The position numbers were made by a program, and so were the translations under genes. From positions 1 through 61,722 of the forward strand of contig JAPPJZ010000007.1 in the NCBI GenBank assembly GCA_028874365.1: a stretch of 61,722 nt of DNA, written 5' to 3'. The notes beneath the pieces are model-generated. The model searched no databases, was not told the origin of the DNA, and saw nothing but the letters and a program-made list of their open reading frames with translations. Shown piece by piece: positions 38,790 through 53,694 of the stretch. The DNA comes from Chloroflexota bacterium. Lineage in GTDB: Bacteria; Chloroflexota; Dehalococcoidia; Bin125. Numbering within the stretch: position 1 is the stretch's first letter; every line of letters starts with the position of its first letter.

Positions 38790-39763
38790 CTGTCGACGTC
38801 CACTACCAACGGGACACCGCTCAGGTCTCGGCCGACCGCTTGCAGCGCCGCCCGGATCTCGCGTTCCGTGCGCTGGTAGCGGCCTTCGCCGATGTGTCGG
38901 TAGCGCAGACCCATAGCTGCCTCATCTGTGGGGCCGATCAGGTACTTGGCCGGCCACCAGCGGTTGCGATAGGCGCGCCAGGTGCGAGCGTTGTTGTCCA
39001 GCGGCACCGAATAGTCGATGCCGTATCGCGCGATGGCGTCGCGAATCCGCTCGGGATCCTCCTCGTACGCGAACTCCGGTCGATGGACCCCGAGGATGAT
39101 GAGCCCGTGCTCCCGGTACTTCTCGTCCCAGGCGGTGAGATAGGGGAGCGTGTTCTGGCAGTTGTAGCAGCCGAAGGTCCAGAAATCGATCAGGACGACA
39201 TTGCCTTTGGCCAGCTCGCGAGCGATGGTCGTCGGCTCGCCGTTGAGCCAGCCGACCAGACCGATGAGGTCCGGCGTAGTCGCCGCGGCGCGGATCGCCG
39301 CTGCCCCGGCGAGCAAGCGACGTTCATCGGCCGATTCAGGGTCTTGCAGCTGTTCAACCACGACGGCTCGGGTCCGATACCAGCTCCCCGGGTTGGCCGC
39401 CGCCGGCAGGATTGAGCGTCGCGGCATGACGTTGACGCCCTCCAGACGCAACCCGAACTCCGTGCGCCCGTCGCCGAGGCGACGCGCAATCACCAGCGTC
39501 TCGAACCCGTTGACGTCAATCGGCGAACTGACGATCCAGTTGGCATGCTCAATCGTCGCTCGAAGGAAACGGGCCGTCGGAAACCGGGCGCCTCGCGCGG
39601 TCTGCACACCGAACTCGATTCGGCCGCTGTCGTGCAGTCGCGCCCGAACCTCAACAGAGAAGGTGGGAACGGGGTCGGCAGCCGAAGCGACTCCATGCAG
39701 GAACGCTGCGCATAACACTGCCGCGAATACGGTGGGCAGCGCCAGGCGCCTCGTCCGGGTCAT
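38786..39763 (-). CDS. Secreted DipZ-like redoxin with two N-terminal DGR-EFG modules
   Basis: A 325-aa exported protein. A signal peptide (RRLALPTVFAAVLCAAFLHG, ending near VASA) is followed by two tandem modules (about 37-84 and 89-137), each with (D/S)GR-(I/T)-EFG and a later Pro-x-x-(R/S) segment. A thioredoxin fold then starts near 185: VVLIDFWTFGCYNCQNTLPY gives the redox pair Cys199/Cys202, followed by LIILGVHRPEFAYEEDP, close to the redoxin domain of mycobacterial DipZ. It probably handles thiol exchange outside the membrane; the N-terminal modules may bind a partner or the wall. The same modules occur in the protein at 52873-53694. Confidence 0.8.
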   Translation of the reverse strand: MTRTRRLALPTVFAAVLCAAFLHGVASAADPVPTFSVEVRARLHDSGRIEFGVQTARGARFPTARFLRATIEHANWIVSSPIDVNGFETLVIARRLGDGRTEFGLRLEGVNVMPRRSILPAAANPGSWYRTRAVVVEQLQDPESADERRLLAGAAAIRAAATTPDLIGLVGWLNGEPTTIARELAKGNVVLIDFWTFGCYNCQNTLPYLTAWDEKYREHGLIILGVHRPEFAYEEDPERIRDAIARYGIDYSVPLDNNARTWRAYRNRWWPAKYLIGPTDEAAMGLRYRHIGEGRYQRTEREIRAALQAVGRDLSGVPLVVDVDS

Positions 39764-52665: not shown

Positions 52666-52872
52666 CGAAGCCTCAACCACTGCCGGAGTTGTTGACATAT
52701 CGAGGCGCCCTTGAGAAAGTGACAGCAGCGCCAGTCGATCGAGAGGCGTTCGTTAGACGAGCGCAAAATCAGTCATTGCGTCTGGATGGCTGGGGGCAAC
52801 CTGCGGACGCCGCGATAAACTGTCGTCAAGTAACTCCCACCACGGCGGGTGCGGGGCAAGGAGGAGCCGGGA

Positions 52873-53694
52873 ATGCGAACCATCTCGTCTGAAGGAGCGG
52901 CGGCACGCTGGATGATCCGTCTTGCTCTCGTGACCGCTCTGCTGGCGTTACTCGTCTCGCTGACTCCGGCGCTTGACGCGCAGGAACGACCCCCCGGACC
53001 GCAGGTGTTCTTTGGCAAAGACGCCACCGCCTACGCCGGATCGGAGATCAAGGTCTTCAATCAAGCCGGCGTCGAGATCAGCTCGGGCGGAGAAGGCACC
53101 GGCATCATCGGCAACGACGGAAACTGGTGGGTGCAGATCAGCCTGGACGATGCCACGAGGGCCAAGCTGCGGATCGTGTCTGCCTCCGGTGACCGCGAAA
53201 CCGAGCTGCTGGATCTGATCGAGTTCGACCTCAAGGAAATCTCAATTCGAGACTTCTCTCCGGTGTCGACATCACCCAGTCAGCCGTCGCAGGCCTCGAT
53301 TTGCGGCGCGCCAAAAGACTCCTCAGCGACCAACCTGGCAGGGGCGGGCGAAACGCTCTCGGTCCGCATCATTGCCCGGCGAGCTGCCGATGGCCGTATC
53401 GAATTCGGCATGCGCGGCCCGGACGGCGAAGACATCCTGCCGCGAGCTCGCTTCTTCCCGGCCGACGGTCCCGGCCACAGTCGCTATCTACGAAGCACGC
53501 CCATCGACTTCGGCGGCGGATTCCAGGGTCGGATCATCGCCTGTCATGTCGAAGCGGACGGACGAACCGAGTTCGGCTTCCGTGTGGCGGGGTACGACGA
53601 CATCTTCCCGCGAGCCCGCCTCTTCCCCGCAACCGGTCCCGACCACAACCGCTTCTTGCGCAGTTCCGTGATCGAGATCGCCAGGCCGAGATAG
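52873..53694 (+). CDS. Secreted protein with two DGR-EFG modules
   Basis: A 273-aa exported protein of unknown function. The signal peptide (IRLALVTALLALLVSLTPAL, cleaved near LDA) is followed by a beta-rich domain (about 44-115: VFFGKDATAYAGSEIKVFNQ and GIIGNDGNWWVQISLDD) resembling carboxypeptidase-regulatory/Ig-like folds. After a Ser/Pro linker come two modules (about 163-213 and 219-270): ADGRIEFGMRGPDGEDILPR then ARFFPADGPGHSRYLRSTPI, and ADGRTEFGFRVAGYDDIFPR then ARLFPATGPDHNRFLRSSVI. AAGGAGG lies upstream of ATG 52873; a GTG at 52849 is a weaker start. The modules match those in the redoxin at 38786-39763. Confidence 0.75.
   Translation: MRTISSEGAAARWMIRLALVTALLALLVSLTPALDAQERPPGPQVFFGKDATAYAGSEIKVFNQAGVEISSGGEGTGIIGNDGNWWVQISLDDATRAKLRIVSASGDRETELLDLIEFDLKEISIRDFSPVSTSPSQPSQASICGAPKDSSATNLAGAGETLSVRIIARRAADGRIEFGMRGPDGEDILPRARFFPADGPGHSRYLRSTPIDFGGGFQGRIIACHVEADGRTEFGFRVAGYDDIFPRARLFPATGPDHNRFLRSSVIEIARPR

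Follow-up and report, generated by a model that had tools for sequence, protein, structure and literature searches.

Exported proteins of certain Dehalococcoidia and of one Acidimicrobiia family share a module of about 50 residues that apparently belongs to no named family, is predicted to be all-beta, and may serve to retain or bind its carrier proteins at the cell surface. The preliminary description of this DNA had presented the module as a C-terminal repeat. That holds for P0001, the gene in which the module was noticed, but most carriers have it just behind the export signal, on varied exported proteins. P0001 is thus an exception among the module genes, with its module pair C-terminal, behind an Ig-like domain.

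P0001 (52873-53694, + strand) lies in the 61,722-nucleotide stretch of contig JAPPJZ010000007.1 analyzed here (the window) and encodes a 273-aa exported protein made up of a signal segment, an Ig-like domain, a linker and two module copies. A Shine-Dalgarno sequence, AAGGAGGAG, was read directly at 52858-52866 (+), with the ATG start six bases downstream. Hydropathy and sequence place a signal segment at residues 1-36 (52873-52980, +), with a hydrophobic core at residues ~14-30 and a possible cleavage site, LDA-QE. The N-terminal domain (52981-53268, +) is weakly Ig-like: the Pfam profile Big_6 gave a sub-threshold match to P0001 alone (E 0.078, residues 52-103, outside both modules) and matched 7 of 12 orthologues (best E 3.2e-4). 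A Ser/Pro linker separates this domain from the module pair, with copy 1 at 53356-53511 (+; profile A1, E 2.2e-21) and copy 2 at 53521-53679 (+; profile A1, E 7.9e-17). The two copies share 59% identity across 49 aa (BLASTP, E = 8e-17). The export signal, Ig-like domain, linker and tandem repeat of the preliminary description were all recovered, the Ig-like domain as a weak match, while its LPRAR motif is found in copy 1 and reads FPRAR in copy 2.

In the order, 18 of the 20 genomes gave homologues of the N-terminal half of P0001, of which a few were weak matches. All 16 homologues that were fully read have a pair of module copies, in some cases strongly diverged, showing that the C-terminal pair layout is kept across the order. 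In orthologues at six loci (L117, L123, L124, L127, L128 and L129) copy 1 has diverged strongly, e.g. RARVYPSSEDP...RSIEFNLSVDG, and copy 2 retains more of the module pattern. PPC-type proteins likewise have two copies at their C-terminal end, and a profile search of the class found two-copy sets in several further Dehalococcoidia families. It is only a suggestion that the C-terminal pair is the older form of module use.

A six-frame search of the window with a profile of the two P0001 copies matched one other protein, P0002 (38786-39763, - strand). This 325-aa exported protein consists of a signal peptide, a pair of module copies (39512-39664 and 39356-39505, both -; profile A1, E 8.8e-18 and 5.6e-18) and an AhpC-TSA/thioredoxin-like domain at residues 176-278 (38930-39238, -; Pfam E 1.2e-6, over the cut-off). 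The P0001 and P0002 pairs account for the four copies that had been counted in the window.

The module consensus is approximately VRIxARxLxDGRxE[FV]ALQ, a variable loop, then WGERxLPxxRF[LF]PAxxxxGRWLxSSPx[VIL]. Conserved structural positions, in single-copy numbering, are G17, P33, P39 and W48, and conserved charged or polar positions are R8, D16, R18, E20, Q24 and R36; P0001 departs from these with Tyr at position 48 and Arg at position 24. AlphaFold2, supplied with 42-47 homologues, returned confident models for both the pair (pLDDT 87.6, pTM 0.80) and the single copy whose modeling had been proposed earlier (pLDDT 89.7, pTM 0.70). Both models are all-beta without a helix; the core hairpin makes its turn at the conserved DGR, and short strands near LPxxRF come after it. 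The beta-hairpin anticipated from the sequence is therefore there as one long hairpin, but it does not describe the whole module, since short strands are also present and the copies of a pair seemingly complete each other. Strand 1 of the pair model begins four residues before its counterpart in the single-copy model, every copy of the pair ends in a strand, and these modeled strand extents suggest that the last strand of each copy pairs with the first strand of the other.

The module could not be assigned to any known family, as the preliminary description had also found. When 47 module sequences were compared one by one with Pfam and NCBIfam, none reached a cut-off, and the best E-values of 0.02-0.04 came from single members. 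The Big profiles of bacterial Ig-like domains did not match the module; Big_6 matched the P0001 N-terminal domain only. Module profiles searched against PDB sequences returned matches at noise level; the best with profile A1 was a PLL lectin (E 0.099), which no longer appeared with the larger profile A4. Foldseek searches with the pair and the single copy recognized no family (best E 0.25 and 0.47), and VIA-align 2 found no convincing solved structure for either (best Z 5.6 and 3.4). The tandem pair showed weak fold similarity to the C-terminal domain of FAIM (2kd2; Z 5.6, rmsd 3.0 over 72) and to the Sulfolobus S-layer protein SlaA (7zcx; Z 5.4, rmsd 3.6 over 102), but such Z-scores are at the level of common arrangements, and the best Foldseek E for any chain was 0.25. 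The lack of structural matches in these lists does not show that the fold is new. No description of the module was found in the open literature, a search that most subscription papers fall outside.

Several DUF1508/YegP structures ranked high for the single copy, so this family (PF07411) was also compared by profile. Three of its entries were within the first 20 Foldseek rows, all with E above 1, and its beta meander overlays 25-31 residues of the module at 1.4-2.5 A (6q2z, 2k7i and 3bid; Foldseek E 1.2-3.3). The profile comparison showed no similarity: hhalign of A4 against 13 DUF1508 segments gave a probability of 0.2% with one column aligned. DUF1508/YegP domains also have a helix packed on the meander, unlike the helix-free module models, and PF07411 had no match in the source genome.

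Searches of the contigs of the source assembly (3.12 Mb, 96% complete) with sequences and profiles showed that the module is abundant in this genome. The P0001 query matched 22 places, and profile A1 (19 rows) matched 40 places at E <= 1, of which 28 were near full model length with E < 1e-12. Reading of the open reading frames gave 28 module genes, including two that frameshifts appear to have disrupted. These two (L148, contig C30:13560-13731, and L149, contig C56:5253-5397) are split over two overlapping frames and are either frameshifted pseudogenes or assembly errors. The profile search of Chloroflexota advocated in the preliminary description thus extended the module from the window to the whole genome and, as described below, to most of the order.

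The position of the module is close to fixed. In 24 of the 26 ORFs that have a clear N-terminal hydrophobic segment, the first module begins no more than 40 residues past it, with a median gap of 10.5, and the module is similarly close in 20 of 24 Acidimicrobiia proteins and in 37 of 41 named loci. Because most of the proteins have signal-peptidase-I-like sites between the hydrophobic segment and the module, and lipoboxes are rare, cleavage of the signal is likely in many of them, as judged by a simple motif rather than a trained predictor. Module proteins of the source genome are mostly single-copy and those of Acidimicrobiia mostly carry pairs. One 533-aa ORF (L084) has three near-identical consecutive copies at residues 55-232, which suggests a recent duplication.

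The cargo attached to the module is diverse yet of types that work outside the cytoplasm. Pfam searches of the source genome identified Peripla_BP_4 domains in nine module proteins (one just below the cut-off), with a tenth assigned by paralogy, as well as four trypsin-like domains (Trypsin_2, one within a broken gene), Peripla_BP_6, Cu/Zn superoxide dismutase (Sod_Cu), AhpC-TSA, Cache and PPC; several module proteins had no named cargo domain. Acidimicrobiia cargo included RCC1 propellers and an Amidase_3. The Peripla_BP_4 fusions lie on contigs C30, C46, C60, C69, C78 and C80 (paralogue loci L151, L154, L155, L157, L158, L159 and L161), and BPD_transp_2 permeases lie on C2, C9, C14 and C50. 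The fusions look like orphans because none shares a contig with such a permease, and the ten paralogues are possibly surface receptors or scavengers and not transporter parts. The Peripla_BP_6 fusion on C2 adjoins two permeases.

Some cargo is common to both phyla. A C-terminal domain in proteins of the same layout is 53% identical over 89 residues between the source genome and an Acidimicrobiia-family MAG (E 1.5e-25), and RCC1-type cargo of Acidimicrobiia is 44% identical over 520 residues to that of a Chloroflexota MAG (L082). The former domain, found behind the module at L008:1189-1755 (-) and L165:1524-2381 (-), has no Pfam match and centers on SLGCPxxGxxYAxVVxPGYRLVF. An Acidimicrobiia-family MAG (L163, G421:C41:1000-15500) has an array of three genes, each encoding a signal peptide, two to three modules and an RCC1-type propeller.

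The taxonomic distribution of the module is narrow. Among 400 genomes sampled across the phylum, with 16 candidates scored per genome, the sole credible carriers were the genus of the source genome and one other genome with four matches; weak matches in G045, G272 and G145 appear to be due to chance, off-frame or fragmentary. A search of 393 genomes of the class Dehalococcoidia, also with 16 candidates scored per genome, found the module in 40. Within the order it was present in 18 of 20 genomes, including all 15 of good quality, at 3-47 copies each. Outside the phylum, all nine genomes of one Acidimicrobiia family had 6-44 copies, compared with 5 of 148 genomes sampled from the order to which that family belongs. 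Long contigs and presence in every member make contamination unlikely as the source of the copies in this family. One of its genomes (G555) has 17 divergent copies on a single 1.7-Mb contig, mostly in two gene clusters (C2:1627473-1633750 and C2:1680731-1687946). Contamination could account for the four copies in a gammaproteobacterial MAG and the six in another 'Acidimicrobiia' MAG (L088). No match came from viral contigs or plasmids, so nothing points to carriage by phages or plasmids. A tree of 128 modules, weakly resolved and built from few columns, grouped them by lineage, with 15 changes of the Dehalococcoidia label compared to 43 in shuffles, indicating expansion mostly within lineages.

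All 40 named loci with the module come from MAGs. The bin125 source is the sponge Aplysina aerophoba (PMC5649159), the jk18x bins originate from Ircinia sponges (PMC9531527), and by our own reading the prefixes RHO, COS, IRC and APA fit the Rhopaloeides, Coscinoderma, Ircinia and Aplysina of an earlier survey (PMC8163846). Association with marine sponges is thus well supported for the matches traced in this way, which leave out SB06xx, p16x63 and CATQGW, and is probable for the remaining carriers. Eukaryotic-like repeats such as ankyrin, WD40, FN3 and cadherin are enriched in sponge symbionts and suspected of a role in host association (PMC8163846, PMC9531527). Since the module is absent from Pfam, the Pfam-based survey (PMC8163846) could not have counted it.

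A small module on unrelated exported cargo, at a near-fixed place by the signal and in high copy number in lineages that seemingly have a common habitat, fits what is expected of a unit for retention, targeting or binding. Our favored model is that the module is an extracytoplasmic accessory unit, a standard part of exported proteins in certain Dehalococcoidia and Acidimicrobiia, normally placed between the signal or anchor segment, which it directly follows, and the working domain. In this position it would hold or orient ligand-binding domains, proteases, redox enzymes and propellers on the cell surface or within the surrounding material, a form of retention that would resemble the use of SLH, LysM or choline-binding modules. 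We give surface retention or binding about an even chance of being correct; from the observed position and cargo we infer the binding and its benefit, and the extracellular binding proposed in the preliminary description is plausible. The module showed no homology to one whose binding function is known, and proteins with an uncleaved anchor would not require further retention. Because the modules of P0001 and PPC-type proteins are C-terminal, the N-terminal place is not obligatory. These same C-terminal pairs could not serve as N-terminal spacers, which weakens the alternative that the module is a self-folding spacer or export helper that offsets cargo from the membrane or aids folding at the translocon and binds nothing. 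The short module that folds alone in the model, its fixed position beside the hydrophobic segment and the functional unrelatedness of the cargo would all suit such a helper. The conserved R8, D16, R18, E20, Q24 and R36 exceed what a spacer needs, however, and the likely signal-peptidase sites lie upstream of the module, so we regard this alternative as unlikely.

The strand extents in the models raise the prospect that copies pair through exchanged edge strands, such that single-copy proteins dimerize and tandem pairs close on themselves. The earlier start of strand 1 in the tandem model and the terminal strand of each copy look as if exchanged, and the predominance of pairs in Acidimicrobiia and of single copies in the source genome agrees with this idea. 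The exchange is drawn entirely from modeled strand extents, however, and oligomerization leaves the presence of a common module on so many cargoes unexplained, and we regard it as improbable. Exclusion of peptidoglycan as the ligand on the grounds that Dehalococcoidia lack it was rejected when all 20 genomes of the order proved to have 3-4 Transpeptidase (PF00905) genes; with these penicillin-binding-type transpeptidases, peptidoglycan stays a candidate. Of greater interest is a possible sponge ligand, in which case the module would bind mesohyl matrix or glycan and act as a host-association tag by which symbionts of at least two phyla deploy secreted proteins. The traced carriers are sponge symbionts from two phyla that have cargo in common, and most other Chloroflexota lack the module, as do most members of the Acidimicrobiia order. 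Habitat is traced for only part of the carriers, however, the modules group mostly by lineage, and superoxide dismutase and thioredoxin-like cargo require no host ligand, so we consider a host tag rather unlikely.

Accessory modules of surface proteins are well known. SLH, LysM, CWB2 and choline-binding modules are small units carried at one chain end by unrelated exported proteins, singly or in tandem and many per genome. The module described here likewise lies close to one end of exported proteins whose cargo is unrelated, but differs in lacking a Pfam match to any of these, in usually following the signal segment directly, and in being confined to few lineages. This one appears to be undescribed. 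Its presence 20-47 times per genome, on ligand-binding domains, proteases and redox enzymes, in two phyla with an animal habitat in common directs attention to how these uncultured bacteria meet their extracellular surroundings. With a profile of the module one could group exported proteins that are now likely filed as hypothetical, and because the module is small and expressible, it offers a direct test of what symbiont surface proteins grip in the sponge.
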